From a virus: a DNA stretch of 27,796 bases. The notes below the pieces were generated by a model. The model was not told the origin of the DNA. It ran no database searches and worked only from the letters and a program-made list of their open reading frames with translations. The stretch covers positions 1 to 27,796 of the IMG/VR virus record IMGVR_UViG_3300037091_000192. One strand, written 5' to 3'. Below are positions 9,930 through 27,617 of the stretch, piece after piece (position 1 is the first letter of the stretch; every line of letters starts with the position of its first letter). Made by a program: the position numbers and the translations under genes.

Positions 9930-12900
9930 CTATACTGCTGGTGTAGGTGCTGGTGTTTCTGCTACAGGTGTTTCAGCAACTGGTGCTGTTTCTGCACCAG
10001 GTAAAGGAGTTTCTGGTTTAATTGTTTCTTCTTCCCCAGGACCAAGCACAACTGGACTAGGTCTTCCCCCACCACCACCTGCATTATCATTTTTAATAAA
10101 CTCTTTAGGTATTCTATCATTCTTATCAAATACTGTCCCTGCTTCCTTTTCTAACTTACTTCTTTCTGTTGCATAATCTAAACTGGGAAATTTAGTAAAA
10201 AGTGTCTCTGTGCTTACATACCCTTTCTCATGCATATCTATATAAAGCTTTCTCTCTTCTGCCTCTTCTTCAATATCAAGAGATTTATACCAAGTTATCT
10301 GTGGAAGCACTAATACCTTTTCTTTACCCTTTTGATAATAAAATTTATTATCTAATGCTATAGGCCTGTAAAATTTATTTATCATCCAGCTTTCATAAAG
10401 ATCCCTTTTGGTCTTTGCCATCATTGTAAAGTTCTGTAGGGACATTGACTTTAAATTACTATTACCTGTTAAAATAAATTTGCCGTTTCTTTCTACCATG
10501 AAAATATGATTGGGAACCTCTGCACACCATACAATACCCTTGTAATAAAATGGAGATATTACATTGGATATTGATTTACTATCCAAACAATGTATACCAT
10601 TTAAATTTTGATCTGAATCAGAAAAATAAACAAGGTATATTCCTTTATCATTTTTATCCTTTAATGTTGGCATATAACCCAATTTAAAACATATTTCACA
10701 AATATCTTCTGCCAATTGTTTGGATGTTGTAATATAAGTATAATAAATTTTATCTGTTTCTGCTTTTCTAGTGGCAACTCTTTCATTGCCATCTCCCTTG
10801 ATTAATGCATCTAATATTAATTTTAAATATTTTGGTTCTGCATTTTTCATCCATACAGGTATATGTTTAACAAAAGAATTTTGCCCAGCCTCACTAATAA
10901 CAAACTGGGTTAAATCTTTATTGCACCAAACAAAACTTTTTTGTGGTGCAACAAGTTTATTTGTTTTTTTAGAAATATATTTACATTGATATGAATATTT
11001 ACCATGTTTAAATGGTAAAGCATCACATACTGCTTCTATGTCTTTTATACAATCACTACCTATAGACTGACCTATTCCCAATCTCCATGCCTTTTTGCGT
11101 TCTTTATTGGAGATAGTGCCATCTTTCCTCTTATACCCATTCTTAACATTGTATCCATTACCCCATCCTTCACTAATCCAATATCCCATAAATTTAAACC
11201 AATCTTCCATCTTTACTTGTTCATTAGCAACAGTTATAAATTCCCTCTGCTGTTCTCCAATCCATTTTCCACCAACTCTCATTTGTGATCTAGATTGTAC
11301 ATCTTTGGCTTCTACAAATCCCCATTCACCTTTATATCTTTGTTTTGCCCAACACCTATGATTGGGAGTAACCATTAAATCAACACTGTTAGTATTAAAA
11401 TGAATCAAATGCCCTTCATAATCAAATTTAAAAATATTGGTGGGTTTATGATATTCATATTCTTCTGTTTCTGGATTAAATGTCATCACTTCATCTTCCA
11501 TTGTCAACTCACCATGAAACTTCAAACCAGACTTTGTTACAATTCTAGATTTGTCATCCAGACAGAAACTTGGTCCATCACCCGTGATTAAATTTTTGTT
11601 GACTCCAAGTCCAACCATTATCTGATCCTGTAAATAATCATAATCTTCTTTCACTGGTAAGAGCTTACCTGTTACACCAAGTGCCTCATATTTTATATAA
11701 GGAGGAAAGACCATACTGAAGGGAGGCGATTGTATAGCCTGATTAATCATATCCCTTATACTATCTAATTGATCTGGTGTAGGTAAAATATTATTTGCTA
11801 TATCTCCAACTGTCCAAAGTTCTACTGGCATGTGATATCTATCTGCTGCTGCTACTTGTGCAAGACGTATCTTGTCCTGGTAAACAAGGCTATTTTTAAC
11901 AAATATACCAGACATATTAGAAGTTAATATTGCAAAATTATGATATGGTTTTGAATTAATCAAATCATAAACATCTTCTCTTTCAGCGAGAAACTCTGCT
12001 TTTTTAACTTTATGATTAATTAAAACCAACTCTTTAAGATCACATATTATGTCATCCTTATCTTTGCATATATCTTTATATAAAGGCATTAAGGATTCAT
12101 TTTCTAATAAATCTTTGGCTTCACAGTAATTGCCATCTCTCAACATTATCTTGTGATCTGGTGTACATTTAAAACTACTATCATCATCCAATGTAATCTT
12201 AACCATTTCCCTATTAACATCATTTAACATTACCTCTTCTACTAATCCAGATGCTATGTTTTGTGTTTCTGGATTTATAGAATATACATAAATATTTTTT
12301 GCTTTTTCTTCATATAACTGTTTAATAGATTTATTCTTTCCATTTAATAAAGGAATAATAGTATCTCCACTTAAACATTTGAAGCAACATTGTATTGGCG
12401 CTGTCCCCCTTGTTGCAGATGGATCAGTTATTCTGGCAATCTGTGAAACATTATTATTATCCAATGGTATATTTTTATTAGCTTTAATTGCAGTGATAAC
12501 TTCTTGAGGAACTCCTTTTTGTAAAAGTTCATTCTCATCCATCTTACCAACTATTTTCTTCATCTCTTCTGTGGCCACTAATGCAAAAGTTATTTTACCA
12601 TCTCCAAATAAAGCTGATTCTATTTCAACTAATTCTGGCTCTAAAAGTATTCCATTCTTCCACCTCATTGAGCCGGACCATGGACCCTCTGAAATCTTTT
12701 CTTTATTTAGGAAATGTAATGCTTCACCAAATTTTTCATAAGATAAAGAACTTTGTAGTATATAATAAAACAAATCAAAATTTTCATTGAAAGACATTTC
12801 TTTATAAAACTCAGTAACTGAATCATCTTGAGAATTTAATTCAAATCTGGAGAAAGGATAGTAAGCCCTAAGTAGCAAAATATTTTGGATAAAAGGTTCT

Positions 12901-13166
12901 AAATTAAAGAAAATCCTTACCCATTTTAAAATTTCTTGCCTTGACTTTGGAAGTAACCAGCTGTCACTTGTCATCTCTGGAGAATACCAAAATGATTGTG
13001 CCTGTGTTACATTGGCTGCAGATGCTTCTTTTATTATATCTTCACCTTTAGCCACAACACCACCATCTTTCTTCATATTCCCAAACCGATAAGCCGAGTT
13101 AAGGGTGTGTCGACCTGTCATTGCAATTATATCGGATTCTGACAAATTCTCTTTATTTTCGGACAT
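9930..13166 (-). CDS. Portal protein precursor with two inteins
   Basis: A 1078-residue precursor; ATG at 13166 follows AGGAGG. Removing the two inteins (residues 264-425 and 535-902) leaves a 548-residue portal, a normal size. Portal features in the exteins are LKWVRIFFNLEPFIQNILLL near 79-98, the core CCFK joined to SLVYQDKIRLAQVAAADRYH, QAIQSPPFSMVFPPYI, and GVNKNLITGDGPSF joined to SNLKSMSLQNFT, followed by YESWMINKFYRPIA. This agrees with the portal pattern 'DKlRqAQ...ADR' and 'G...lltG.g..y.N', so both inteins sit in conserved motifs. The C-terminus is Gly, then Pro/Ala/Thr/Glu-rich (VAETPVAETPAPTPAV) and disordered. The dodecameric portal docks TerL and the neck. It lies downstream of terL, with two small genes between them. 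Confidence 0.88.
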   Translation of the reverse strand: MSENKENLSESDIIAMTGRHTLNSAYRFGNMKKDGGVVAKGEDIIKEASAANVTQAQSFWYSPEMTSDSWLLPKSRQEILKWVRIFFNLEPFIQNILLLRAYYPFSRFELNSQDDSVTEFYKEMSFNENFDLFYYILQSSLSYEKFGEALHFLNKEKISEGPWSGSMRWKNGILLEPELVEIESALFGDGKITFALVATEEMKKIVGKMDENELLQKGVPQEVITAIKANKNIPLDNNNVSQIARITDPSATRGTAPIQCCFKCLSGDTIIPLLNGKNKSIKQLYEEKAKNIYVYSINPETQNIASGLVEEVMLNDVNREMVKITLDDDSSFKCTPDHKIMLRDGNYCEAKDLLENESLMPLYKDICKDKDDIICDLKELVLINHKVKKAEFLAEREDVYDLINSKPYHNFAILTSNMSGIFVKNSLVYQDKIRLAQVAAADRYHMPVELWTVGDIANNILPTPDQLDSIRDMINQAIQSPPFSMVFPPYIKYEALGVTGKLLPVKEDYDYLQDQIMVGLGVNKNLITGDGPSFCLDDKSRIVTKSGLKFHGELTMEDEVMTFNPETEEYEYHKPTNIFKFDYEGHLIHFNTNSVDLMVTPNHRCWAKQRYKGEWGFVEAKDVQSRSQMRVGGKWIGEQQREFITVANEQVKMEDWFKFMGYWISEGWGNGYNVKNGYKRKDGTISNKERKKAWRLGIGQSIGSDCIKDIEAVCDALPFKHGKYSYQCKYISKKTNKLVAPQKSFVWCNKDLTQFVISEAGQNSFVKHIPVWMKNAEPKYLKLILDALIKGDGNERVATRKAETDKIYYTYITTSKQLAEDICEICFKLGYMPTLKDKNDKGIYLVYFSDSDQNLNGIHCLDSKSISNVISPFYYKGIVWCAEVPNHIFMVERNGKFILTGNSNLKSMSLQNFTMMAKTKRDLYESWMINKFYRPIALDNKFYYQKGKEKVLVLPQITWYKSLDIEEEAEERKLYIDMHEKGYVSTETLFTKFPSLDYATERSKLEKEAGTVFDKNDRIPKEFIKNDNAGGGGGRPSPVVLGPGEEETIKPETPLPGAETAPVAETPVAETPAPTPAV
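10461..11564 (-). mobile_element. Portal intein 2, 368 residues, with LAGLIDADG endonuclease
   Basis: The intein starts at Cys535 (CLDDKSRIVTKSG) and ends at Asn902, with Ser903 as the +1 residue. Splicing blocks visible: block A at the start, block B VTPNHRCW with Thr600 and His603, and block F/G VWCAEVPNHIFMVERNGKF ending LTGN-S. The usual penultimate His is a Gly, a variant known in several phage inteins. Between the blocks lie two LAGLIDADG-type helices, FMGYWISEGWG (659-669) and LILDALIKGDG (783-793), so it probably encodes an active homing endonuclease. The insertion falls in the conserved portal motif around 'TGDGPSF/SNLKS'. Boundaries are seen directly; activity is inferred. Confidence 0.88.
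11892..12377 (-). mobile_element. Portal intein 1, 162-residue mini-intein
   Basis: It begins at Cys264 (CLSGDTIIPLLNG), has block B FKCTPDHKIML with Thr335 and His338, block F VYDLINSKPYHNF with His409, and ends IFVKN-S with Asn425 and +1 Ser426. There is no room or motif for a homing endonuclease, so it is a mini-intein that spreads only in trans or by descent. The penultimate residue, usually His, is Lys424, which may slow Asn cyclisation. Excision restores CCFK-SLVYQDKIR, a good portal motif. The two inteins are different in sequence and not copies of each other. Confidence 0.85.
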
Positions 13167-13746: not shown

Positions 13747-15399
13747 TTATCTCCCCAACATTCTGTCACCAAAAGTCTTTTGACCACTATGACCACCACC
13801 ACCTGGCATTCTGGTAGTTGATCCACCCATAACTGGCATAATTATTGTATGACTGCCTACATTGCTTTGTTTGAATGTGGAATGTTTATCACAGGCCCAA
13901 ATGCAAAGTGCATCTGAAAACATAATATCATCATGAAAACCCTCAGCAGCTTCTAGTCTTGCATTGGGTCCAAGCTTTTCTTCTTTCTCAATATTGCACC
14001 ACTCACTATAACCTTTCTTAATTACTACTACTGAATTAATAACATCTTGATTGGGATATTTTACTCTATCATGCCTTAATTCAAACATAGATAAATCAAC
14101 TAAAGCATTCTTCCAATTTTTGTGGGTTATATGTTCTGTAGCACCAAATTGAACCCCTTCTACTGGGAACTTATCTTTTTTAAGAGAATCTAAAGCGGCT
14201 ACCCCCAAAACAGAAAAGTCTAATAGTCCAAACTTACATCTGAATCTACCTGTTACTGGGTGTACAACGGCTTTACATTCTTCTAATACATCAAGTGGAC
14301 TTTCTTTATTACTCCATGTGGATCCAAAGACTTTCTCTTTAGTTCCATCTAAAAGCCTTCTCCAAACAGATAGAGCATGGAAATCTCCAGATTGCTTGAC
14401 TTCACCCTGTTTGTTTTTCTTTACTATTAATGTGCCACTTGCAAAGTCTATACCAAAGAAATATTCTTCACCAGGTCTGCCTTCATTTAAATAATTATGT
14501 GTACCAATCAGTTTAGCTTTATCTTCATCAGTTAATAAAAGACTTAAAGATTCAATCCATTCTATCATGTATTGAGTTTTAAAATCATTTTCATCCATCT
14601 CATCTTCTGATTCTTGTTCGTGTAATTCAGGATTATGAGGAAATAATTTAATCTTTAAACTTAATGGCATGTACTCTAATTGCTTTCTGGGATATTCTTT
14701 CTCTATACCATTTAAATCTTTTAATGTTATACTACCGCCTTGTAAAAGAATTGGACATCTTGTCCAGTCATATGCTATTTTTGTATATTTACTATCTTTA
14801 AATGATTTAAAAAAATGGTTTCTATATCGTGGTACACCTATCTTTATTATTTTTTGGTGTGCTCCTGTTGCCATTGGGATTATTGTCTCACTCATGGCAT
14901 GGTCTCGTACTTTCTGGCTTTCGTCTACCACTAGGCAATTGTAGTGTTCTCCGACATTTTCTGCCTGTTCAGAAGCAGATTGTGCTATAACAAAAGAACC
15001 ATTCTTAAAATATATTTTTGTTTTTGTTGATCTCTTAAAATCAACTGAATCTTTCATGTTGCTTTTAGCAATTATATTATACATTACCCCAACAACTCTG
15101 GTTGCCTGATCTGCTTTAGGAGCAAATATACCAACTTTATAATCAGCATTATCTTCACATAGAAGTATAAGTCCAGCAGCAACAGCATAGGTTTTTCCAG
15201 AACCACGAGCACAAACTATTATAATATATTCACAGTTAATATCTATAACATGTTCAATAATATCTACTTGGTTATCAAATAAATCTACCTTCAACCTCTT
15301 TAGTATTCTAAAGGATTTGTCAAACGCCTCATCAATTATAGAAATATTATCTGCGGTAATTATACCAATTGCACCTGAACTATTATTGTTCATTGTCAT
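13747..15399 (-). CDS. terL: Terminase large subunit (TerL)
   Basis: A 550-residue ATPase-nuclease that drives DNA into the prohead and cuts it. Walker A is CARGSGKT (63-70), Walker B CLVVDES (155-161), with the coupling motif likely in IIKIGVP (184-190). The RNase H-like nuclease has acidic residues in YFFGIDFASGT (Asp318), FGLLDFS (Asp394) and EGFHDDIMFSDAL (Asp490, Asp491, Asp496). The C-terminus is Gly/Met-rich and flexible (MPGGGGHSGQ). The start at 15399 has GAGGGGA 4 to 5 bases upstream; a second ATG two codons later is possible. No intein is present although TerL is a common intein host. No small terminase is recognised in the window. Confidence 0.93.
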   Translation of the reverse strand: MTMNNNSSGAIGIITADNISIIDEAFDKSFRILKRLKVDLFDNQVDIIEHVIDINCEYIIIVCARGSGKTYAVAAGLILLCEDNADYKVGIFAPKADQATRVVGVMYNIIAKSNMKDSVDFKRSTKTKIYFKNGSFVIAQSASEQAENVGEHYNCLVVDESQKVRDHAMSETIIPMATGAHQKIIKIGVPRYRNHFFKSFKDSKYTKIAYDWTRCPILLQGGSITLKDLNGIEKEYPRKQLEYMPLSLKIKLFPHNPELHEQESEDEMDENDFKTQYMIEWIESLSLLLTDEDKAKLIGTHNYLNEGRPGEEYFFGIDFASGTLIVKKNKQGEVKQSGDFHALSVWRRLLDGTKEKVFGSTWSNKESPLDVLEECKAVVHPVTGRFRCKFGLLDFSVLGVAALDSLKKDKFPVEGVQFGATEHITHKNWKNALVDLSMFELRHDRVKYPNQDVINSVVVIKKGYSEWCNIEKEEKLGPNARLEAAEGFHDDIMFSDALCIWACDKHSTFKQSNVGSHTIIMPVMGGSTTRMPGGGGHSGQKTFGDRMLGR

Positions 15400-15418: not shown

Positions 15419-17047
15419 TTATATCTTCTTTAATTCTCTTTCAAATCCAACTAATCCTTTTCCCCAATCCAATAGACTGTGTAGCAAATTCTTTATAGTA
15501 TCTGCAAAAACTGCTTCAATAGTTAATGAAGATTTCAAGTCAGGGAAAGTTACCAACCTAACATCTTCTGTTATTAAAGTCTTTATCTCTTTAGCCATAG
15601 ATGTTTGATAGTCCAATATCTTTTTATCCATCTCAGCAGTCAATTCTTTTACTGCCTGTGCTTTTTTATCTTCCATTTCTTTTACATTTTTTAAAATACT
15701 TTCCTTTGTATCCTCTGGATAGACAAACTCTTTCTTTTCTGTTCTTGTAGTCAACTTGGCAAATATGTCTTTACCAACCCTTGCTACCCATTTTTCATAT
15801 ACATTTAATGTATTGAACAACTTACCAGCTGCATTGATCATTACCGTAACTTTTTGTGATTTACCTTGTTCTTTTTCCATCTTTGTTTTAAGCTGATCAA
15901 TAGCATCTTTTACCATTTTATCATCATTTTGCATCATCTTACCTAAAGCTATTGTTTTTTCAAGGAGATTTTTTAATTCCCCAGTAGTTACATCTTGAGC
16001 ATCTTTAACATCTTGTGCTGTCACTTGTTGCAATCTTATCTTCTGAACATCTAATTTAGTAGGTTTAATTACTTTATCAGGAGCTACTTTGGGCTTAACT
16101 TCTGTAGTCTGTTCTGTTTTAGGAGTCGCCGGCTGATTTAAAACTTTATCCAACTCATGTAATACATCATCTGAATCATCTGCTTTCTTATCTAACTTTC
16201 CTTCCTTCACCACAATATTGGGATCATAACCATCATGATCTATTAAATCATTTTTAATGTCTTCAATATCGCTTTCACCCTCACCACTATAAAAAACTGT
16301 ATCTATTAATTTATTATATAAATAAACATCAAAAGGCTTAGTGGCACCGGACTTTTTGTTTAAATTTTCTTCTTTCTTAACTTCTGGTATAACTTCTTTC
16401 TGAACATCTTTCTTTCCAATACCTCTTGCTTTATATTTCTTTTCTAATTCTGTCATGAAATCATATTCTTTACTAGTAAAAGCTTCTTCAAAACGTCTTG
16501 CCAACTCTTCTGCTGCCTGCTGCTTCACTTCTCTTGTAGGTTTATTCACTTGTGATTTCCCATCATCTGCCCAATCTGTAATTCTTTGGAACCAAAGCTT
16601 TGCCACCTCTTCTACAAGATACATAAATAATTTAGGAGCTAATGCAACATCATATACTCCTCTTAATTTCTTTCTGGTTAAATTTTTATATATATCCATT
16701 AATCTTCCATATAATCTTCCATATAATGGTTCTTCATTTTCTACAAGTAATACTAGGTCATCAGCATCTGCATCATAAACATCTATATCTTTATTCTCCG
16801 GACTATAATGCTGCTCTATAGCTTTCTTATCTTCTGGGTTTTCTGCTTCTTCTACCTTGTTGCAAACATCACATAATACAATACCATCTTCTCTTTTTAT
16901 ACCCAGTTCACTACCACATCTAGCACAAATATAAGGTTCATCTTTTACTTCAGATATTTCTGGTATAACTTCTGCCTTTTTAATTTCTTTAGGCATTTCT
17001 TTTTCAGCCCTCTTTATTACATTCAATATCCAATTTGCTTTATGCAT
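15419..17047 (-). CDS. Large Lys/Glu-rich protein with zinc ribbon and 'NW' N-terminus
   Basis: A 542-residue protein, ATG at 17047 behind AGGAGG. It starts MHKANWILNVIKRAEKE, close in pattern to the N-termini of the 893- and 527-residue products. A zinc ribbon follows at Cys41, Cys44, Cys59 and Cys62 (CARCGSELG ... LCDVCNK). Then come a helical region (100-210, including LAPKLFMYLVEEVAKLWFQR), Lys/Glu/Pro linkers, and a long coiled coil (about 330-500) ending LLDWGKGLVGFERELKKI. A 12-base tandem repeat gives LYGRLYGR. The gene lies immediately upstream of terL. I know no family for the whole protein. A head-internal or packaging-associated virion protein is inferred from place and shared N-terminus; no enzyme motif is seen. 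Confidence 0.65.
   Translation of the reverse strand: MHKANWILNVIKRAEKEMPKEIKKAEVIPEISEVKDEPYICARCGSELGIKREDGIVLCDVCNKVEEAENPEDKKAIEQHYSPENKDIDVYDADADDLVLLVENEEPLYGRLYGRLMDIYKNLTRKKLRGVYDVALAPKLFMYLVEEVAKLWFQRITDWADDGKSQVNKPTREVKQQAAEELARRFEEAFTSKEYDFMTELEKKYKARGIGKKDVQKEVIPEVKKEENLNKKSGATKPFDVYLYNKLIDTVFYSGEGESDIEDIKNDLIDHDGYDPNIVVKEGKLDKKADDSDDVLHELDKVLNQPATPKTEQTTEVKPKVAPDKVIKPTKLDVQKIRLQQVTAQDVKDAQDVTTGELKNLLEKTIALGKMMQNDDKMVKDAIDQLKTKMEKEQGKSQKVTVMINAAGKLFNTLNVYEKWVARVGKDIFAKLTTRTEKKEFVYPEDTKESILKNVKEMEDKKAQAVKELTAEMDKKILDYQTSMAKEIKTLITEDVRLVTFPDLKSSLTIEAVFADTIKNLLHSLLDWGKGLVGFERELKKI
16701..16724 (-). repeat. 12-base perfect tandem duplication
   Basis: The plus-strand unit AATCTTCCATAT occurs twice in a row inside the 542-aa gene and encodes the repeated LYGR. 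It looks like a recent slippage duplication that kept the frame. Confidence 0.8.
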
Positions 17048-17071: not shown

Positions 17072-17143
17072 TTATTCTACTGGTTCATTAACATCATCTT
17101 CTAGTGGTACCAATTTGGGTCCTTTTTCTATAATCCCCTTACC
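17072..17143 (-). other. Short out-of-frame coding continuation after the 893-aa gene
   Basis: Directly past the TAG of the 893-aa frame, the -1 frame is open for 23 codons to a TAA and reads IIEKGPKLVPLEDDVNEPVE, protein-like in composition and similar in style to the tails of neighbouring products. It has no start or ribosome binding site. It may be the original C-terminus cut off by a one-base indel, a frameshift product, or chance. I see no classic slippery heptamer. Confidence 0.35.
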
Positions 17144-19809
17144 TTATCAGATTGTATAGCACCATAAACAAATCCATTTGATGAATATTGTAAGATATAA
17201 TACTTTCCAACACTATTTTTTAATTCTGGGAAAAGATTGGCATCATCTATTGAAATATCTATTGCATCATATGTGGTTCCATCAGATCCTTCAACTGTAT
17301 CATCAGCACCACCATCCATAGCTATATCATAAAAATAAGGTGTATAAGCCTTTTCACCTTCAAATTTACCAGGGTGACTAACTATTTCCTCATAGTATGA
17401 TTTGTCTTTGGTTTCTTCTGCCTTCTTAATAGATTTATTCAATTTACCTTCTAAATCTATTTTAATCTGTCTTTGTACTGCTTCAGGTAAATCACTTACT
17501 TTAACTTCCTTACCCAAAGTATTTTCTAATGTCTGTTCTGGATAATCAGGGTTATCAAACCCCATAATCCATTGATCTATACTTTCCAGTCCTAAATCCT
17601 CAAAAATGTTTTTATCATGCTGCCAAAATCCTTGCGGATGATTTGGATTCTCAGATGATCCCACTATCCAACCATCAGGAAATATTATAGTATATCTATC
17701 AAATGTTTCTCCACCATTATCAAACACCCTTACTTGCTGATTTGGCAATTCACCTTTATCCTCTAGTTCTTTTAAATGTTTATCTATATTTTCTGTTGTT
17801 GCTTTATTATCAGGAGATTCCATTAATTCTTTTGTCTTAGGAGAGAACTCTTCTGCCTGTTTACCACTTAATTCTGATGGATCATGAACAACTGCTTCCC
17901 CTGGCTTATCTGATTTCTCTGCCAACATTACAGTAACTTCATAAGATTTTTTGGCTTTAAAAAATTCAGCTGCTTTCTTCTGCGCCTCAAAAGATGTTTT
18001 TGCCCACACCTCTGTTTTCTTACCTTTATAAAATGCCACATAACCATTTAAATCCTCATGACTTTCTTCTGCTTTCTTACTTGATTTCTTTGATAAATAT
18101 TCCTCATTAATATAGTCCCTCAATACACCTGCTGTATCATAAAATATCTTTGCCTGTTCTAGTGTAAATGTGTGAGTAAATTTCCTTTTACCATTTATAA
18201 AACATCGTATGGCATACTCATCATCTGTTTTCTTATCAGAAGTCAACATTTTACCATACTGTTCTTTCTGCCATTTTCTATATTCACTAACTAATTCAGC
18301 AGGATATTTCTTTTCTACATCTGCTTCTAAATCCGGTTCCCCCTTTGCTGATTTTAAATCCTCTATTAACTGTTTAAACTTTTCAGGAACTTCGCTGGAT
18401 TTCTTCTCAACAACTTTTAAATCTTCTGGATCTGATGTTACATTAATAACAGGATTAGCCTTCCATGCTTCTTCTGCTGAACTAAATCCCAATCTCTTTG
18501 CTATCCCATATGTTTCATCATAATGTTTAAATTGCTCAAAATCTTTATCATAGCTATCTTGTAGTTTACCCTGCCAAGAGATTTTACTTAAACTAGAATA
18601 TTTATGCTTTGTTCCCATTCCCTTTTGCTGTGTACTATATCCAGTCATATATCCTTCTTTATCCTTTTGTTCTACAAACTTTTTAGCATCTCTTTCATCT
18701 GTGAATATCTGCTTTTGTAATTTTCCAGTACTATCCCCTTTCATCCACCAAACCAGCCACTCTGTATTAGTATCATCATCTTCATTTCTATATCCAGTTC
18801 TATCTCCCTTTGCTTCTCTTTCTTTTACAAAAGCAAGAGCCTCTGATTCTGTTTTAAAATATTGCCTTTCATCTTTGCCATCTTCCTTATAATTAACATA
18901 CCACTTACCACTTTCTTTATTTAAACTTGATTCCTTATTACCCACTTGCTCAAACTCCATAAAATCACTCTGTTGACCTTCCCCAGTAGAAGCAAATAAC
19001 TTTGGAGGAGTTTGATCACTCATCTCAAATTTTACCATCTTCCTAATATATTTCCCTGGATTACCAATCATATCCTCAGTAGAAGCAGATACACATTCAT
19101 ACTTGTTTGATTTAAGCATACTTAAAAATTTCTCTTTAGAAATGTCCTCTGTTGAATATCCAGCTTTCTTATCTTCTTTTTTAACTTCTTTAAATTTACC
19201 TTTATATTTACAAACTGGGCAAGGTCCACCTGTTGCTCCAGATAAAGCCTGTGTATCTGATAATATTGTCTTACATGCAGGACATTCATATTTTTCAGTA
19301 GATACTTCATCACTGGCCTTCTTTTCCCCAACAGTTGTAGTATCCTTAACCTTCCACTCCCCCATTTCATTTTTAAATAATACCCTATCTCCACCTTCAC
19401 CATGTATTTCATAAAAATCCCCTTTATCTTCATATATGCCAAATGCTCCCCATTCAGGATGTTTTATATTTTCTATACTAACTTGCCTTACTGGTAATTT
19501 CATCATATCATATTCTTTTTGGGGATCTGTAACCTCAGATGTTTTACCAACCCCTGCCAGTTTCTCTTCTAATTTTTTCTTAACCTCTTCATATTTACCC
19601 TTAATAAAAGGTTTGAAATCAAGTGTTATAATATACATATCTCCTGTAATATCACTTTGTACAGATACATCTTTACCTGCTTTAATTTCTTCTGCAAAAG
19701 CTTTCATTGCCAATGCCTGCATTTCTTCATAGTAATCAAATGTTCCTGCTTTCTTTTCAACCTTCTTATCCCAATCTACAAGATCTGTAAGCCAATTTTT
19801 CTTATACAT
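17128..19809 (-). CDS. 893-aa multidomain virion-associated protein with zinc ribbon and repeated W/Y modules
   Basis: ATG at 19809 follows AGGAGG by 8 bases. It begins MYKKNWLTDLVDWDKKVEKK, the shared 'NW' N-terminus. A zinc ribbon lies at Cys176, Cys179, Cys197 and Cys200 (CPACKTIL ... CPVCKYKG). Residues 302-340 and 351-391 are two copies of one module (KWYVNYKEDG ... FKTESEALAFVKE and EWLVWWMKGD ... FTDERDAKKFVE, each ending TGY); the 1305-aa protein has a third. Residues 586-645 (YVAFYKGKKTEVWAKTSFEA ... KSYEVTVMLAEK) resemble short domains I recall from other phage proteins. The C-terminal part is acidic and beta-rich (YDIAMDGGADDTVEGSDG). No catalytic motif is recognised. It looks like a mosaic of small domains on Lys/Glu linkers; its role is unknown, perhaps a head-internal protein. 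Confidence 0.65.
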   Translation of the reverse strand: MYKKNWLTDLVDWDKKVEKKAGTFDYYEEMQALAMKAFAEEIKAGKDVSVQSDITGDMYIITLDFKPFIKGKYEEVKKKLEEKLAGVGKTSEVTDPQKEYDMMKLPVRQVSIENIKHPEWGAFGIYEDKGDFYEIHGEGGDRVLFKNEMGEWKVKDTTTVGEKKASDEVSTEKYECPACKTILSDTQALSGATGGPCPVCKYKGKFKEVKKEDKKAGYSTEDISKEKFLSMLKSNKYECVSASTEDMIGNPGKYIRKMVKFEMSDQTPPKLFASTGEGQQSDFMEFEQVGNKESSLNKESGKWYVNYKEDGKDERQYFKTESEALAFVKEREAKGDRTGYRNEDDDTNTEWLVWWMKGDSTGKLQKQIFTDERDAKKFVEQKDKEGYMTGYSTQQKGMGTKHKYSSLSKISWQGKLQDSYDKDFEQFKHYDETYGIAKRLGFSSAEEAWKANPVINVTSDPEDLKVVEKKSSEVPEKFKQLIEDLKSAKGEPDLEADVEKKYPAELVSEYRKWQKEQYGKMLTSDKKTDDEYAIRCFINGKRKFTHTFTLEQAKIFYDTAGVLRDYINEEYLSKKSSKKAEESHEDLNGYVAFYKGKKTEVWAKTSFEAQKKAAEFFKAKKSYEVTVMLAEKSDKPGEAVVHDPSELSGKQAEEFSPKTKELMESPDNKATTENIDKHLKELEDKGELPNQQVRVFDNGGETFDRYTIIFPDGWIVGSSENPNHPQGFWQHDKNIFEDLGLESIDQWIMGFDNPDYPEQTLENTLGKEVKVSDLPEAVQRQIKIDLEGKLNKSIKKAEETKDKSYYEEIVSHPGKFEGEKAYTPYFYDIAMDGGADDTVEGSDGTTYDAIDISIDDANLFPELKNSVGKYYILQYSSNGFVYGAIQSDKVRGL

Positions 19810-20113: not shown

Positions 20114-21697
20114 TTATTTAATGTTTTCTAAAGTTGCTTTTTCCTCTTTCTCACATACTTCACATATATCTTTATCTATTGCTATCTCTTTATTACAGAT
20201 ATAACATGCCTTCTTGGATTCTTCTTTCTCTATAACCTTATCTTCTTTTACTATTTCTTTATTTTTACCAACTTCTTTAATTTCTTCTTTAGGTATATCT
20301 ATTTCCTTAACCTCATCCTTAATATCATCTTTCTTTTTATCAGGTACTGTTTTTACTGTTTCCTTAACTTTAGTATGTACTCTATTCTGCTTGTCTTTCC
20401 ATGTTACTGTCTTTGTAACCTTTACAGTATGATCTGCAAACTTACTGATACCATAACTTCCTCTTAATTTAGCATTTGTTTTAATAACATCCTTCTTATC
20501 TATCCAAATAGGTTTCTGAAGAGTATCATAATCACTTGGTGCACTTGAATTAGTAATTCCTATTTTATCATCCTTTATATCTATTACCATATAAAGACTC
20601 TCTCCTAAATCCTTTCTATTCTTAACCCTAATTAAATCCCCTGTATGAATTTCTCTGTCTTTGGGTAATTTAGTATCTTCTTTAAATTCTGGTAATGGTT
20701 CTCTATCTAATTGATAGGGTCTCAAATTTATTAACATAATATCAATGGCTTTTTCTAATATGGCATCCATATTATTTTCATCATTATCCCCAGGATCACT
20801 AACATCAAAGTCAAACCTAGGAGGCTTCTCACTTACTACCCATATCTTTACAATTAATCCATTGCATTCTTTTGATATAGCATTGATAGCTGTCTTTATA
20901 GCATCAGGAGAAATTTTTGCTTGAATATCCAATGAAGCATTGGATTTAGATAAATCCTTTACAACATATACCTCTTTCATTAATTTGTCTTTTTCTGCCA
21001 TTAACTCTTTGGCTTTCTTGAAATCATCATCATTCTTTGTTTCTAATAGTTTCTTTATTTCAGATTGTAATTCATCTATCTTTTTTATATTACTATCTGT
21101 TTCATCTGCCTTAATATTTAAACTAGTATGCTTTTCTACCTCTTTTACAGTTGGTCCTAAATCATTTTTAGGAACAACTTTTTCTGGAGGTGTTATAAAT
21201 TCATCTTTGGCTTTCTCAATAGTTTTCTCTTTGTCTTTCTGCAATGTCTGATCACTAGGAGTAACAGGCACTGTGGCTGGTGGATTGGCTTTGGGAACTT
21301 CTTCTTTAGTAATTGTCTTAACTGGCTTATTACGTTCCTTAACATCCCTAGAATGATTAGTGAAATCTATCTGTCCAATATCTCTAGCCAACATATCATG
21401 CAAACTTTCTGTACTTGCTATTTCCATCGCCTTACTTTTAGCTTCTTCTTCAGAATTAAAAACTAAAGTTTTCTCTACACTAAATTCAGCATCAGTTATA
21501 TATTGTCCGGCTCCAGTATATGATCCATAATGTATTTCTTTACCTCGTTGCCATATGAACTCTCCCTTTGCTCCAGTCGCTGTATAGGCCAGTATCTCAC
21601 CCTTATTTTTTTCTGTAACCTTGTCAATTAACAGGGCTGATTTATCTATTTTAAAAACATCCTTAACAAATTCTATTAACCAATTTTTCTGGTTCAT
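20114..21697 (-). CDS. 527-aa Lys/Glu-rich protein with 'NW' N-terminus and C-terminal zinc ribbon
   Basis: ATG at 21697 follows AGGAGG. The N-terminus MNQKNWLIEFVKDVFKIDKS shares the KNW-hydrophobic pattern with the 893- and 542-aa products. Visible parts: a beta-rich domain at 34-100 (GEFIWQRGKEIHYGSY ... FNSEEEAKSKAMEIA), Pro/Lys linkers, a coiled coil at about 200-245, an alpha/beta domain at 255-330 (IKTAINAISKECNGLIVKIW), an SH3-like strand set at 350-410 (HTGDLIRVKNRKDLGESLYM), a Lys-rich stretch, and a zinc ribbon near the end at Cys498, Cys501, Cys512 and Cys515 (CYICNKE ... ICEVCEK). No enzyme motif is visible. It lies between the AAA+ gene and the membrane protein gene. Probably a virion component; function unknown. 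Confidence 0.62.
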   Translation of the reverse strand: MNQKNWLIEFVKDVFKIDKSALLIDKVTEKNKGEILAYTATGAKGEFIWQRGKEIHYGSYTGAGQYITDAEFSVEKTLVFNSEEEAKSKAMEIASTESLHDMLARDIGQIDFTNHSRDVKERNKPVKTITKEEVPKANPPATVPVTPSDQTLQKDKEKTIEKAKDEFITPPEKVVPKNDLGPTVKEVEKHTSLNIKADETDSNIKKIDELQSEIKKLLETKNDDDFKKAKELMAEKDKLMKEVYVVKDLSKSNASLDIQAKISPDAIKTAINAISKECNGLIVKIWVVSEKPPRFDFDVSDPGDNDENNMDAILEKAIDIMLINLRPYQLDREPLPEFKEDTKLPKDREIHTGDLIRVKNRKDLGESLYMVIDIKDDKIGITNSSAPSDYDTLQKPIWIDKKDVIKTNAKLRGSYGISKFADHTVKVTKTVTWKDKQNRVHTKVKETVKTVPDKKKDDIKDEVKEIDIPKEEIKEVGKNKEIVKEDKVIEKEESKKACYICNKEIAIDKDICEVCEKEEKATLENIK

Positions 21698-21715: not shown

Positions 21716-24700
21716 TTAAACTTTTTCTTCAACAATAGGTTTAACTTCTTCTAGCCTTTCTTTCTGTTCTTTATTATAATCTTCTACAAATTTCTCATCC
21801 ACATCCCCTTTATCCTTTGCTTTATTTTCAGCATCTTCAAGATAGGGTAAATAATATTTGGGATTTTCAGAAAGATGATCAAGTGCAATTTCCTTTGCTA
21901 CATTTTTATCATCAGTATGTTCCATCTCTATTTCAATACCTTTGGCTAATTGCTTGGGATCAACTTGATCCTCTGTCAATTTCTTGTGCTCTGCCATTCC
22001 ACCAGGTATGCCATTATCTATTTTATTTTCTTTTATAACTGCAGGCTCATCCCCTTTTATTTCTTCTGCTTTCTTATTAGCTACTACATCAACTGCTACT
22101 TCTGGTCCATCTGAATCTTCTTCATCTATCTTCAAATCTGCTATCTTTTCCCTTATAATTACATTATCAAAGGATCTCATTACATCACATACATCCATTG
22201 CTGGTTCACTTATTATCTTACCAGAGAATCCATTACTATCTATTACTCTATCTCCCTTGGTAAACTTTTTAGAAGCTATTTTTGATCCACTTTCTATTAA
22301 TTTTTTATCATCTTCTATAAACTTATTTGCTTCTTCTTCTGTATTAAAATGATGTCCTGTATCCTGTTTATTACCTTTCTCATCATAAGTAAAAACATAA
22401 AACTTACCATCAACAGGTTCTACTTTATGAGTAATATTGGATTTCTTTACCATTTTAGATACTTTGCTAACATCAAACTCATCTGAAATGTCCTTCATAT
22501 GTTCCCAATACATTGCATCCCCTTCAAAATCTACAGTAGTTATTCCATTGTCTTTATTAGTATGTATTTGATAATGTAACTCTCCACCCTCTTTCTCAAC
22601 TGCCTGTACCATGTTATCCAATTTAAGATCTAATTTTTCAATCTCTGCATCTGTTAATACACCATAATCTTTTGTTTCTTTAACCAATTCTGGTCCCTCA
22701 ACCCATGGTTCCAACATATTTTCAGGATAATCGGTTATTTCAGGTAGATAAAAATCTATCCATCCATAATCCTTCTCTTCCCTTAACCCATTTTCTTTAT
22801 CCCTCATCTCCAACTTGTCTATTTCTTGATAAGTAGAGAACTCCGGCTTACTCCAAAGCTTTTCTATGATAGACCAATTGTCTTTTTTCCATGCATCAAA
22901 TGCCATCTGCATTCCCTTTTCTGTATACATATCATCCTTAGTTAATATTCCCTGTGCTACTGCATCCTCATATTTAATAGCTGGAACTTTACCTATACCT
23001 TTACCAAAGTCTGCTTCTTTTTTACTTACATCTCTCTTAACTTCTTTCTTACATTTAGGACAACCAAATACATCTTCTTTCCCCTTTGTAATATGTTCTA
23101 ATTCTGTTTTACATTCTGGGCAAAGTTCCTTCTCTGCTTTCTTCATTCCTGCAAATTTCTGCATTAACTTAAATGAAGCTAATTTGATTTCCTTAATAGT
23201 TTGCATGGGAAAGAAATTATCCCTTATTATCTGACAACTTGCCTTCATACATTCTAATATTGTTTTATCCTCATGCCTAGCTAAAATTTTGGCTGTATTT
23301 ACTGTTTCTCTAACATGTGCTCCAGTGAAATCTTTAGATAGTTTTATAATCTCATCTGTTACATCTATATCAGAAAACTTTTTATAAAGCATCTTTAAAC
23401 TTGCTTCTGTAGGTAATCCAATTTCTATCTTTCTATCAAATCTTCCCGGGCGAGATGACAATGCTTCATCCAATAAAGCTATTTTATTAGTAGAAGCAAG
23501 AATAACAACAGGCTCATTATAATCCCTCATACCATCCATGTTTGTTAAGAGATCACCAAGTAAATTGTTATTTACAAATACTTCATTCCTATTACCGGAA
23601 ATCATGTCAATATCTTCAAAAGCCAAAACTGTCTTGCCAAGATAAGGAAGTAAATCAAAAAGACTACCTGCACTCATTCTCCTAAAGCTTTCAGCTGTAA
23701 CATATACTCTACTGACATTCTTTCCTTCTAGCTCATTGAAAATAGCTTTACATGCTGATGTCTTCCCTGATCCTGGAGGTCCATACATTACTAATCCCCT
23801 CTTATTAACCCCAACTCCAGCAAGTTTAACATCACCCAAAAAACTAACTGTATTCATTTTAATATCTTTCTTTATCCCTTCTTCTAATACAACATCATCC
23901 CAAGAGATTTTGGGTACTCCATGAAACATTACATTACCATTTTCTACATGTAAGCATTTACCACGATATTGATTTTCTTTAAGCATCTTGGTTTCAAACT
24001 TTTCCATCCAATTCATAGCTGCTTCCCTTGTCTTAGCAAAACAAGAGATTGACCAATCTTGATAATGCTGATTGGATTGGATAACCATATGGGGATAGAT
24101 TATTAAGGAATTGTTTATAACAGAAGCTATTTTATTTGTATCTACAGGTATATCTATAATCTCTACATTATCTGAAAAGCTTTTACCATTGTTTATTATT
24201 CTAGGATCTTCTGCCTTTATTAATTCAGTTAAAGCATACTGGGCTACTGGCACTAGAAATCCAGAGTAACTCCTATTGACTGATTGCATTCCCTCTATTG
24301 CTGCCTGTTTATGAATGGATTCTAATTTTGTTAGGAGAGAGGATTTCTTGTTTAATGAAGTTTTTTGGTTACTCAACCATGGCGCTCTTTTGGGTTTATC
24401 ATCTGCCATATTATAATCAGAACATAAGTTATCTATTTCATCATGAGCAGATTCCCATGTATCAAATACCTCTAGCGGCAATTTTTCTTTTACATATTCA
24501 AATACTTCATCATTATTATCAATTCCAGAAGCATTGGCTTCATAAACCAATCTCTTAACTTCTTTCTTCCATTCGGGACCTATAGTTCTAGCCTCTTCTT
24601 TAACCAATGATGATTGTGTCATGGAAATTGGGCTATCACTCGATTTATCCCCAGTACCTACAGGCTCACTTTCTGATTTCATTGTTGATAGAAATTCCTT

Positions 24701-25633
24701 TGTCTTGACACCTGCCTCTTCTAATTTCTTATCTGCTATTAATTTATGTATCTCTGCCAATTTAAGTTTGATAGAATTATAAAGTGTTTCCGTTTCTGCC
24801 TTAGTCTTTAAAGTCTTAGTAAAAATCCCTTCCCAAGAATCTGTCCAATAGATTGCTATATTTACTTCCTCTTCTGATACATAATTAACTTCTTTAGAAG
24901 AAGTATACATGGACATTGTTATACTTCTTATTTTGTCCTTTGATATGGCATCAGGATCCACAACATCAAATGTATCTTCTGTTGCTATATTCTCTTTATC
25001 TATATTAACTCTTTCTGATTTTTTAGAAACATCTTTAATTTCATCAGCATAAGAAATATCATCTCTCCAACTGTACATGTCATCCATATAAATATCTGTT
25101 ATATCTGTCATATCTTCATATCTATTTGCCCATTCAATATGAACAGTTTTTTTATCGGTTTTATTTGCATAAGTAACTTCATGCCCAGATGCATCATATT
25201 CTTCCATGGTAAATAGCAAACCATCTACTACAATATAATCAAATAACTTTCCACCATTCTGAATATGCTTTTTATAATCCTCTACAGTTTTAAATCTTTG
25301 ACTTGAAGAAGTATATTCATTTATAAGTTTAGGACTTGTTTTGCCTACAGTTTCTTTAGATGATTCCGCTACTACTTCTTCTTTTGCCATATCATTAAAT
25401 TTCTTTAGGTTATCCCTATCTTTATTATTTAATGATTCAGCAACCTTTGCTTTGTATATCAAATCTTCCAATTTCTTTATCTCTGATATATCTGTTGTAT
25501 TCTTAATCTTTTCATAAAGCTCCACTATAGGATTTAATTTGGGTTTAACTCCAATCACTTCTTCCTTTTTTATAACATCATCTGCAACTACCTCTTGTAT
25601 AAAATCAGATATGGAACTATTCTTATCTTTCAT
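21716..25633 (-). CDS. 1305-aa AAA+ ATPase with zinc ribbon and DUF5661-like C-terminus
   Basis: ATG at 25633 follows AGGAGG. The ATPase core (about 560-790) has Walker A GPPGSGKT (618-625), Walker B VLAFEDID (669-676), sensor 1 ILASTN (711-716), and the Arg-finger region SRPGRFDRKIEIG (727-739). This is the classical FtsH/BCS1-like AAA clade, whose members pull or unfold proteins as hexamers. A zinc ribbon follows (Cys838, Cys841, Cys858, Cys861), then Lys/Glu-rich sequence, a WYV-type module at 1076-1110 like those of the 893-aa protein, and at about 1206-1270 a DUF5661-like domain (GIEIEMEHTDDKNVAKEIAL, then DHLSENPKYY). Residues 1-450 are charged and contain no known domain. It lies near the start of the virion operon. 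ATPase assignment is certain; substrate and whether it enters the virion are unknown. Confidence 0.88.
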   Translation of the reverse strand: MKDKNSSISDFIQEVVADDVIKKEEVIGVKPKLNPIVELYEKIKNTTDISEIKKLEDLIYKAKVAESLNNKDRDNLKKFNDMAKEEVVAESSKETVGKTSPKLINEYTSSSQRFKTVEDYKKHIQNGGKLFDYIVVDGLLFTMEEYDASGHEVTYANKTDKKTVHIEWANRYEDMTDITDIYMDDMYSWRDDISYADEIKDVSKKSERVNIDKENIATEDTFDVVDPDAISKDKIRSITMSMYTSSKEVNYVSEEEVNIAIYWTDSWEGIFTKTLKTKAETETLYNSIKLKLAEIHKLIADKKLEEAGVKTKEFLSTMKSESEPVGTGDKSSDSPISMTQSSLVKEEARTIGPEWKKEVKRLVYEANASGIDNNDEVFEYVKEKLPLEVFDTWESAHDEIDNLCSDYNMADDKPKRAPWLSNQKTSLNKKSSLLTKLESIHKQAAIEGMQSVNRSYSGFLVPVAQYALTELIKAEDPRIINNGKSFSDNVEIIDIPVDTNKIASVINNSLIIYPHMVIQSNQHYQDWSISCFAKTREAAMNWMEKFETKMLKENQYRGKCLHVENGNVMFHGVPKISWDDVVLEEGIKKDIKMNTVSFLGDVKLAGVGVNKRGLVMYGPPGSGKTSACKAIFNELEGKNVSRVYVTAESFRRMSAGSLFDLLPYLGKTVLAFEDIDMISGNRNEVFVNNNLLGDLLTNMDGMRDYNEPVVILASTNKIALLDEALSSRPGRFDRKIEIGLPTEASLKMLYKKFSDIDVTDEIIKLSKDFTGAHVRETVNTAKILARHEDKTILECMKASCQIIRDNFFPMQTIKEIKLASFKLMQKFAGMKKAEKELCPECKTELEHITKGKEDVFGCPKCKKEVKRDVSKKEADFGKGIGKVPAIKYEDAVAQGILTKDDMYTEKGMQMAFDAWKKDNWSIIEKLWSKPEFSTYQEIDKLEMRDKENGLREEKDYGWIDFYLPEITDYPENMLEPWVEGPELVKETKDYGVLTDAEIEKLDLKLDNMVQAVEKEGGELHYQIHTNKDNGITTVDFEGDAMYWEHMKDISDEFDVSKVSKMVKKSNITHKVEPVDGKFYVFTYDEKGNKQDTGHHFNTEEEANKFIEDDKKLIESGSKIASKKFTKGDRVIDSNGFSGKIISEPAMDVCDVMRSFDNVIIREKIADLKIDEEDSDGPEVAVDVVANKKAEEIKGDEPAVIKENKIDNGIPGGMAEHKKLTEDQVDPKQLAKGIEIEMEHTDDKNVAKEIALDHLSENPKYYLPYLEDAENKAKDKGDVDEKFVEDYNKEQKERLEEVKPIVEEKV

Positions 25634-25863: not shown

Positions 25864-26922
25864 TTATATCTTGGCATCCTCTTTTTCATTGCTATCCACC
25901 AGGACAAGTGTGAAATAGCTACCTGTTCCAGCCGCACTAATTTTCCCCTCACTATCATCTGTAACCTTGTATTTTAAACCTTCCACATCTATAATGTCTC
26001 CAACCTTGGTTTCCTCTGGCATAACTGTTTTATTTATCTTTAAAGTCCTGCATACAAAGTTTCCCACATTATTAAGATCTGCCTTCTTATTTTGTAAAGA
26101 TTCTTCAGAAGAATTTACAGCATTAGGCACAAAATGTAATGTCTTAAGTGTTTCCTCTTCCTTAAATTTCTCTTCTTCATCTATTTTCTTTTCATATTCA
26201 CTTACCTTTTTATCTTCCTCTTCCTCAATTATTTCTTCAGTAGTAGAACACTTGGCTATCTCTTTTTGTATTATAGAAACATCAGGCATCTTTGCTGATG
26301 ACTTGTCAATAACTACAGGTATTCTTAATTTCTTTTCCCCTTTCTTATCTATTACACTAATAAAGAATTCAACCATACCTGTAAATGTATTAGCTTTTTT
26401 ATCCAAACTCATTTTGCAATCTTTATAGGATTTAACATTTTCATATTGCAACTTCTTTAAAAGATTTACTATATTAGCTTCTGCAGAAATTATTATATTG
26501 TTTATAATAACTTCATCACTTGAAGACATCTTTAAATTCTTCTCTTCTGGTATCAGTATGCTTTCTGTTACTGTTGACTTAACTGCTTTGGCAATAGGAC
26601 ACCCTGCAATAACTGCATCTTCTTTGGGCATCATAATAGCATCATCATCTATTGCTACTTCATATTCCTTTTCAAAGTATTCTTCATTTAAAAGAGATTT
26701 ACATTTGATAGTAATTATTCCAGATAACCCATGCCCTGATTCTTTTAGTGTATCTTTGCAAGAAGTTACCTTAATATCCTCTTGCTTAAAACCTTTTAGA
26801 AATTGTACAAGGAGATTGGAACTCATTAATTTAAGTTCTTCTCTTTTGTTTCTAATATGTGCCTCATCCCGTTCTATACGCTGCCTGTTGGCGTTACCTA
26901 CAAATGATCTTGATGTTTTCAT
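25864..26922 (-). CDS. 352-aa first gene of the virion operon, with internal repeat
   Basis: ATG at 26922 follows AGGAGG by 8 bases. The N-terminal 35 residues are basic and helical. Residues 37-102 and 150-215 look like two diverged copies of one domain (VQFLKGFKQEDIK ... LSGIITIKCKS ... YEVAIDDD and VNLLKKLQYENVK ... FTGMVEFFISV ... IPVVIDKS). An acidic coiled coil (230-260, EEEEDKKVSEYEKKIDEEEK) follows, then a C-terminal beta domain (KVGDIIDVEGLKYKVTDDSE ... YFTLVLVD) that may bind another protein. It is the first gene after the divergent control region. No enzymatic motif is seen and I recognise no family; a virion or assembly protein is inferred from the operon. Confidence 0.6.
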   Translation of the reverse strand: MKTSRSFVGNANRQRIERDEAHIRNKREELKLMSSNLLVQFLKGFKQEDIKVTSCKDTLKESGHGLSGIITIKCKSLLNEEYFEKEYEVAIDDDAIMMPKEDAVIAGCPIAKAVKSTVTESILIPEEKNLKMSSSDEVIINNIIISAEANIVNLLKKLQYENVKSYKDCKMSLDKKANTFTGMVEFFISVIDKKGEKKLRIPVVIDKSSAKMPDVSIIQKEIAKCSTTEEIIEEEEDKKVSEYEKKIDEEEKFKEEETLKTLHFVPNAVNSSEESLQNKKADLNNVGNFVCRTLKINKTVMPEETKVGDIIDVEGLKYKVTDDSEGKISAAGTGSYFTLVLVDSNEKEDAKI

Positions 26923-27076: not shown

Positions 27077-27101
27077 CTTATAGGATTTATAATAGAAATT
27101 A
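27077..27101 (-). promoter_or_regulatory. Conserved promoter-like element, copy 2
   Basis: The minus strand reads TAATTTCTA then TTATAAATCCTATAAG, matching the element at 9495-9520 except for one deleted and one changed base. It lies about 155 bases upstream of the first gene of the minus-strand operon and only 14 bases from the -35 box of the first divergent plus-strand promoter, so the two could influence each other. Confidence 0.5.
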
Positions 27102-27115
27102 ACAAAAATAATCTC

Positions 27116-27144
27116 TTGACAATGTTTAATAGATATGGTATAAT
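27116..27144 (+). promoter_or_regulatory. Consensus sigma-70 promoter 1 (extended -10)
   Basis: TTGACA at 27116-27121, 17 bases, TATAAT at 27139-27144, preceded by TGG. Both boxes match consensus perfectly. It drives the 49-aa gene, whose ribosome binding site AAGGAGGT follows within 20 bases, leaving a very short leader. Confidence 0.92.
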
Positions 27145-27165
27145 ATACACATCTAAGGAGGTATA

Positions 27166-27315
27166 ATGAAAACAGTTAAAAATTGGGTATTTCTTGCACT
27201 ATTTATTATATCTGTTGTTTTTAGCATTTATTTTTATAATGCTTATGGCAGATGTAATGAAGGTGGATTATCCCTATTTATGGCATTAGCATGTTTACCC
27301 TTTATGGCTGATTAA
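27166..27315 (+). CDS. 49-aa membrane peptide, early gene candidate
   Basis: ATG at 27166, 4 to 5 bases after AAGGAGG, 49 codons, TAA at 27313. The peptide begins MKTVKNWVFLALFIISVVFS with one hydrophobic span at residues 7-24, and a second shorter hydrophobic stretch near the C-terminus (LSLFMALACLPF). It has two cysteines. Its own perfect promoter argues for a real, strongly and early expressed gene. Small membrane peptides encoded at the early side of phage genomes often inhibit host functions or exclude other phages, but nothing in the sequence shows which. No family recognised. Confidence 0.75.
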   Translation: MKTVKNWVFLALFIISVVFSIYFYNAYGRCNEGGLSLFMALACLPFMAD

Positions 27316-27333
27316 AGTATTTTAGATTAACTA

Positions 27334-27362
27334 TTGACATTGTTATAAGAATATGATATAAT
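27334..27362 (+). promoter_or_regulatory. Consensus sigma-70 promoter 2 (extended -10)
   Basis: TTGACA at 27334-27339, 17 bases, TATAAT at 27357-27362, preceded by TGA. Both boxes are perfect. It lies 18 bases after the stop of the 49-aa gene and drives the 45-aa gene. Confidence 0.92.
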
Positions 27363-27403
27363 ACTCATAGTAATAAATTAAATTAAGTACCAAAGGAGGA
27401 AAT

Positions 27404-27541
27404 ATGAAAACATATAAAGAATATAAAACACCAAGTAAATTTTGTTTGGGTAAAGATGAAAAAGTATATGGATTCAAGGATAATGTAATGGAAATAAATA
27501 ATATAATAAATTATGATGAAAATGATTCTTATAGTGATTAA
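27404..27541 (+). CDS. 45-aa soluble peptide, early gene candidate
   Basis: ATG at 27404 follows AAAGGAGGA by 3 to 4 bases; TAA at 27539. The product begins MKTYKEYKTPSKFCLGKDEK, with a basic first half and an acidic C-terminal end (NYDENDSYSD). No membrane span, no motif and no family recognised. Its separate consensus promoter and strong ribosome binding site are the evidence that it is real. Early host-takeover peptides often look like this, but the function cannot be inferred. Confidence 0.7.
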   Translation: MKTYKEYKTPSKFCLGKDEKVYGFKDNVMEINNIINYDENDSYSD

Positions 27542-27558
27542 TTAATTTAAAATGGGTA

Positions 27559-27587
27559 TTGACATTTACCTATTAATATGGTATAAT
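27559..27587 (+). promoter_or_regulatory. Consensus sigma-70 promoter 3 (extended -10)
   Basis: TTGACA at 27559-27564, 17 bases, TATAAT at 27582-27587, preceded by TGG. This is the third perfect promoter in under 500 bases, again just behind the stop codon of the gene before it. Confidence 0.92.
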
Positions 27588-27617
27588 ACATTATTAAGAA
27601 AGTAATAAGGAGGATGT

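Follow-up and report, generated by a model that had tools for sequence, protein, structure and literature searches.

Proteins that phages package in their heads include nucleases, ADP-ribosyltransferases, polymerases and DNA modifiers. Polyvalent proteins, which are large multi-domain proteins of phages and conjugative elements, have been predicted to be packaged and injected, and their processing has been proposed (Iyer et al. 2017, PMC5512222). In SPN3US, the prohead protease gp245 cuts after the motif AXE in the major capsid protein (MCP), the portal and the abundant ejection (E) proteins (PMC10052503). Among AAA ATPases, Bcs1 moves a folded iron-sulfur protein (PMC10567702 and PMC11143374). 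Here, a 27,796-base virus fragment from IMG/VR (IMGVR_UViG_3300037091_000192; the window) was analysed, in which a gene of the head operon encodes a 1305-residue mosaic protein with a AAA+ ATPase core. This core starts directly behind a short motif resembling a protease site, at the very residue that aligns with the native start of a free-standing orthologue. We tentatively favour a reading, to which we would give not quite an even chance, in which the prohead protease releases the AAA module, as cargo, from a head polyprotein and the module is then ejected into the host.

The conserved ATPase core and its junction

Conservation in the 1305-residue protein was confined to residues 445–828. A search of IMG/VR with the AAA region returned a single relative on a 138.9-kb phage contig (G001), with 59% identity over window residues 439–821, and since the window and G001 proteins were unrelated on both flanks of this well-conserved core, the core has the character of an exchangeable module. 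A second orthologue, in a 210.9 kb record (G037), was found by way of the prohead protease, in a search followed by a profile search on the records obtained (E 7.6e-160), and a third (L179) was 78% identical to the G037 protein, bringing the IMG/VR orthologues to three, at 47–59% identity. The G037 and L179 proteins are free-standing (475 and 490 residues, respectively), while the window and G001 versions are fused. In a tree of 16 AAA proteins, all four formed one clade with a support of 99/99. Scanning GTDB with the core yielded one ordinary FtsH only, and the terminase large subunit (TerL) gave no match when used as an IMG/VR query.

A three-way alignment placed Met1 of the G037 protein opposite A445 of the window protein and A451 of the G001 protein, which in both fused proteins is the first residue after a motif (IHKQA before A445 and LERKA before A451). 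A coincidence with a motif boundary within two residues would arise by chance in 0.4% of cases for the window protein, which has one motif, and in 1.6% for the G001 protein, which has four, two probabilities that are not fully independent. Moreover, the DUF5661 domain that is fused in the window protein is a separate small head-block gene in G037, and taken together with the junction this would look like a set of concatenated, protease-separable modules. Its protease-site-like motifs, together with the exactness of its module boundaries, make the 1305-residue protein look like a processed polyprotein. The initial annotation had described a AAA+ ATPase built into a virion-operon mosaic, which might remodel head proteins, act on the host after ejection or unfold scaffold fragments; this interpretation is partly supported by the present results, but the motifs and the exact boundaries had escaped it.

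Distribution of the motif

The short motif reads [LIF]-x-[KR]-[EKQ]-A, and for the counts in G001, which were compared with shuffled sequences, the form [LIFM]-x-[KR]-[KREQ]-A was used. The 28 head-block proteins of G001 contained 45 occurrences against 5.9 in the shuffles (7.6-fold), and outside the head block the motif was not enriched (1 vs 3.0 in tail proteins, 13 vs 11.2 in the rest). Within the 2100-, 1219-, 876- and 552-residue proteins of this phage, the motif separates successive stretches. In the window, sites were found in the MCP (IVKEA/DIYD) and the portal (IIKEA/SAAN), both near the N-terminus, and once in the AAA protein (IHKQA/AIEG), where the slash marks the end of the motif. 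Across the relatives, a slightly relaxed form was 2–4 times denser in the first 80 residues of the MCP, portal and protease than in their bodies, and the motif occupies the N-terminal propeptide position of the MCP, the portal and usually the protease. A comparable surplus of [KR]-x-A sites marks the large head-block proteins of related actinophages and of Bacillus phage G. The simplest reading of this pattern is that the motif is a recognition site of the prohead protease.

Alternatively, the motif could be a capsid-targeting or docking peptide and not a cleavage site, so that the AAA core would stay in a full-length 1305-residue internal head protein. The short head proteins of G001 that start with MKWLxxKA-like versions of the motif, much as a tag would stand at the start of a module, agree with this. 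In the MCP and portal, however, the motif ends the N-terminal extension just before the conserved domain, where propeptide cleavage would be expected, and the core of the free-standing orthologue starts after the motif and not with it, which leaves docking quite improbable.

Separately, gp8, gp9 and gp12 of the Gordonia phage Stormageddon (L063:4708-15109) carry SRRTA/SRRQA-type sites between segments, at 3–4 times the level in shuffles, and an ADP-ribosyltransferase gene lies near the MCP gene of this phage.

Fold and mode of action

A structure model of residues 445–833 (389 residues), predicted by AlphaFold from seven sequences, had a mean predicted local distance difference test score (pLDDT) of 73, with higher values over most of the N-domain; an earlier model from two sequences was poor (pLDDT 45). 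The top 12 PDB matches in Foldseek were Bcs1 states and Bacillus subtilis YjoB, aligned over nearly the full length (Bcs1 E 2.8e-16). VIA-align likewise placed YjoB first (Z 18.9, 327 of 389 residues aligned, root-mean-square deviation (rmsd) 5.5 Å), with proteasomal ATPases close behind at Z 18. The label FtsH/BCS1-like given in the initial annotation is apt, since the AAA domain stands closest to VCP/FtsH when judged on sequence alone and the modelled fold of the whole core is nearest Bcs1 and YjoB.

Compared with FtsH, the seven residues covering the FVGVG pore loop 1 are missing in the head subfamily, and six are missing in more distant relatives encoded in metabolism blocks. The zinc-protease and membrane features of FtsH were also absent from the AAA protein (no HEXXH, no hydrophobic segment), as was a Bcs1-type transmembrane helix before the N-domain (maximum 19-residue hydropathy 1.08). 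Given the Bcs1/YjoB-like fold of the model, the missing pore loop 1 segment and the folded substrate of Bcs1, the favoured view is that the module would form a ring handling folded proteins and not a threading unfoldase. The unfolding of scaffold fragments, one of the roles first proposed, is disfavoured because the pore loop 1 segment of FtsH is deleted.

Proposed function, gene neighbourhoods and alternatives

We infer cleavage, packaging, ejection, ring formation and a type of substrate as follows. A complete Bcs1/YjoB-type AAA+ ATPase (residues 445–828) would be one passenger module of a multi-domain head protein, which would enter the prohead together with other mosaic proteins. There, the prohead protease, trimming the MCP, the portal and itself, would cut the sites between modules and release the ATPase as a mature subunit of ~384 residues able to assemble into a ring. 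The ring would be packaged with the DNA and then ejected, and would act early in the new host on folded substrates, whether a host or defence protein or phage proteins ejected with the ring, without threading or degrading them.

Gene order agrees with a role tied to the head. In line with the expectation that orthologues of a virion protein should stand beside TerL and head genes, all four genes of the close subfamily lie in head or late blocks, three of them (window, G037 and L179) upstream of TerL, and in the window and G037 the portal, protease and MCP follow TerL. The order in G037, on one strand, is RNR, small genes, AAA, small genes, TerL, portal, protease, MCP and the DUF5661 gene, and in L179 this order is kept down to TerL, where the fetched stretch ends. 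In G001, the AAA gene lies downstream of the protease, the MCP, a run of MKWL genes and the 2100-residue mosaic, shortly before the tail genes.

A late head-operon position in four of four orthologues would also suit an assembly chaperone, which would work on head proteins inside the cell that makes the phage, by folding the large mosaics, for instance, or loading them into the prohead, and would be absent from mature virions or a passenger in them. The Bcs1/YjoB-type fold belongs to a chaperone class handling folded proteins, and the free-standing orthologues lack a targeting-like N-terminus, both as this explanation would have it. We nevertheless consider it somewhat unlikely, since the available DNA of several phages whose MCPs are 61–65% identical contains no head-block AAA, so that such a protein is not a general requirement, and since a purely cytoplasmic role would not readily explain why two phages have the protein fused into a mosaic that bears sites.

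A number of observations weigh against a packaged and ejected ATPase. The strict motif is only weakly enriched over the window as a whole (8 vs 4.0 in shuffles), and the N-terminus of the window protease has no strict site. Confidence in the structural model is moderate (pLDDT 73), and its rmsd to YjoB is large (5.5 Å). The head-block AAA is, as said, absent from several of the closest capsid relatives within the available DNA. The free-standing G037 and L179 proteins begin at the core, without the MNxxxIAxxILKxA-like N-termini of their small head neighbours (for example MNSKEMADILLKTA and MNLKLHKIVDEILKEA, each ending at the candidate cut), and may therefore not be packaged. Finally, more distant homologues at ~33% identity, which fall outside the head-block clade, have RecA, Mre11/Rad50-like genes and PolA as neighbours in G005 and G014, two capsid relatives of the window phage, or adjoin RNR (G022 and G025). 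Orthologues in replication regions had been named in the initial annotation as evidence against a virion role, and this holds for these distant homologues but not for the close subfamily.

The last observation raises the question of whether the protein is a relocated housekeeping ATPase, which would serve DNA or nucleotide metabolism just as its relatives do and would stand in the head operon through an accident of gene order. Besides the neighbours of the wider family, the RNR gene just upstream in G037 speaks for this, and the head-block AAA is the sole copy of the family in the G001 and G037 records, as if one copy had replaced the other. The modest identity (~33%) to the metabolism-block copies, the separate clade and the fusion to head modules seen in two phages, where the junction coincides exactly with a protease-type site, argue in the opposite direction and make this explanation unlikely. 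The comparison fits a history in which a metabolism-block AAA gene would have moved into the head block and later been fused into mosaics, and excisable cargo of a head polyprotein is the reading we prefer.

As side observations on these neighbourhoods, the small head-block proteins of G037 (L158:7738-12000) have amphipathic N-termini ending in ILKEA or LLKTA, which resemble the cleaved capsid-targeting sequences of T4 internal proteins. In G014, the metabolism-block homologue (L164:9198-11669) carries an intein inside its Walker A motif, and in G005 (L160:9325-11148) the gene immediately after the metabolism-block AAA gene encodes a phage metallopeptidase (PF18894); a metallopeptidase is also found near AAA in some Schitoviridae. 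In G001, after the AAA gene and one small open reading frame, a DNA ligase D 3'-phosphoesterase domain (PF13298, E 4e-16) is fused to motif-bearing modules (L045:12605-13921), possibly a packaged DNA-end repair enzyme.

By profile, the phage AAA proteins of PHROG 3757, 7485 and 30773 belong to the same wider family (E 1e-22 to 1e-14). The AAA genes of cultured Schitoviridae, Samunavirus and BUCTxx99 were rejected as orthologues, as they fall on other branches of the tree; most of these distant genes have an RNA polymerase, dCTP deaminase, helicase or DNA polymerase gene nearby. Identity with the anti-phage protein IetA/IteA was likewise rejected, the match of 54 bits against a curated IteA cut-off of 510 reflecting generic AAA similarity.

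Domain anatomy and head operon of the window

The AAA gene spans 21716–25633 on the minus strand, with its ATG at 25633 and its stop at 21716, so that the extent and product length initially assigned were right once the strand is added. An open frame and a core about 55–59% identical to independent contigs make a frame or assembly artefact unlikely. All further features of the protein are given as minus-strand coordinates. The N-terminal region, residues 1–439 (24317–25633), has no family match and no homology with the flanking region in the G001 orthologue; up to residue ~440, nothing was matched in Pfam, PHROGs or IMG/VR. It contains two motif-like sequences, SSLVKEEA (residues 341–348, 24590–24613) and TSLNKKS (residues 425–431, 24341–24361), which are weak candidates for processing sites. 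IHKQA, the putative prohead-protease site and sole strict motif in the protein, occupies residues 440–444 (24302–24316) directly before the conserved core. Residues 445–570 (23924–24301) then make up the Bcs1/YjoB-like N-domain of the ATPase module, and the N-terminal half, thought to be unmatched, is thus conserved in its last part.

The AAA ATPase domain (PF00004, residues 615–740, 23414–23791, Pfam E 1.8e-19) holds the complete classical set that had been predicted, namely Walker A (GPPGSGKT, residues 618–625, 23759–23782), Walker B (FEDID, residues 672–676, 23606–23620), sensor 1 (ILASTN, residues 711–716, 23486–23503) and the second region of homology with its arginine finger (SRPGRFDR, residues 727–734, 23432–23455). 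Where the homology to the orthologues fades lies MQKFA (residues 824–828, 23150–23164), a weak match to the relaxed motif. Behind it, a CxxC..CxxC knuckle (residues 838–861, 23051–23122) is zinc-ribbon-like, with all Pfam zinc-ribbon matches below the cut-off. The DUF5661 assignment near the C-terminus was confirmed above the Pfam cut-off (residues 1217–1262, 21848–21985, E 1.1e-9). Several unrelated domains are thus combined in one head-operon polypeptide (AAA core, DUF5661 and the zinc-ribbon-like region). FadA and other weak Pfam matches were set aside as chance. A search of IMG/VR with the whole protein retrieved 43 loci, all through the small DUF5661 domain only and in phages without the motif, and for this reason DUF5661 is no guide to the system.

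The window genes lie almost all on the minus strand. Downstream of the AAA gene come three mosaic proteins of 527 (20114–21697, N-terminus MNQKNWL), 893 (17128–19809, N-terminus MYKKNWL, internal SSLNKES) and 542 residues (15419–17047, with an LDKKA site), then TerL (13747–15399), the portal (9930–13166, with IIKEA at residues 44–48, nt 13023–13037), the prohead protease with a long C-terminal extension (5904–8393) and an SPO1-like MCP (4206–5171, with IVKEA at residues 5–9, nt 5145–5159), all on the minus strand, and because of these neighbours the AAA gene is assigned to the head operon. Upstream, on the same strand, a 352-residue head-operon protein (25864–26922) also has an LDKKA site. A module suspected to be common to the AAA protein and the 893-residue protein did not hold up, a direct comparison giving a 33-residue match at E 0.18 and the zinc knuckle at E 0.017, neither of them significant.

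The portal gene apparently contains two intein insertions, at about residues 266–426 and 536–902 by alignment to intein-free relatives, one of them LAGLIDADG-like. Two proteins encoded downstream of the MCP gene (2183–2818 and 3258–4094) have their ~50 N-terminal residues in common (38% identity, E 2e-7), which suggests a shared segment for virion attachment. At the right end of the window (27097–27589, plus strand), three similar promoter-like repeats (TTGACA, spacer, TATAAT) point at divergent genes running away from the head operon.

Comparison with known systems

If a Bcs1-like AAA ring is indeed packaged, it would constitute a new class of ejected machine, possibly one that disarms or remodels host proteins before phage gene expression. 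The motif map yields predictions, open to direct test, of which phage proteins undergo cleavage and at which positions, and it suggests that a domain bounded by protease sites can be gained or lost by the virion as cargo. A wider proposition is possible rather than probable. On this view, a tailed phage would encode an ATP-driven Bcs1-type motor for folded proteins within a virion polyprotein, from which the protease could excise it, and would package the motor in its head and carry it into the next host; the prohead protease of the group would process polyproteins in general, setting free cargo modules that can be exchanged for one another.

The literature searches made turned up no description of a AAA domain within polyvalent or head-packaged proteins. 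The PHROG 3757, 7485 and 30773 members examined are free-standing and lie in DNA/nucleotide-metabolism blocks, whereas the head-block subfamily is a separate clade. With Bcs1 and YjoB, the window module would share, according to its structure model, the fold of an N-domain plus a single AAA domain (327 of 389 residues for YjoB), and it too lacks an FtsH-type pore loop 1 segment; it differs in its ~20% identity, in having no Bcs1 transmembrane helix and in being embedded in a phage head protein. In phages of the SPN3US/phiKZ type, one short motif directs the head protease to the MCP, the portal and the internal head proteins, many of which enter the host, and the processing proposed for the window resembles this. 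In the passages of PMC10052503 concerned, however, the motif is AXE, the cuts mostly remove N-terminal propeptides and no AAA motor is reported, while the motif of the window group is of the L-x-K-x-A type and is repeated between modules. The closest concept is that of the polyvalent proteins, which likewise combine unrelated domains in one large protein. The window domains differ from those of the polyvalent-protein network, the text of PMC5512222 has no AAA domain (0 hits for 'AAA'), and the self-processing proposed there is of the zincin type, whereas in the window the prohead protease is the enzyme to which the sites point. A head module that carries a Bcs1-like motor and can be excised would thus add a new form to that concept.

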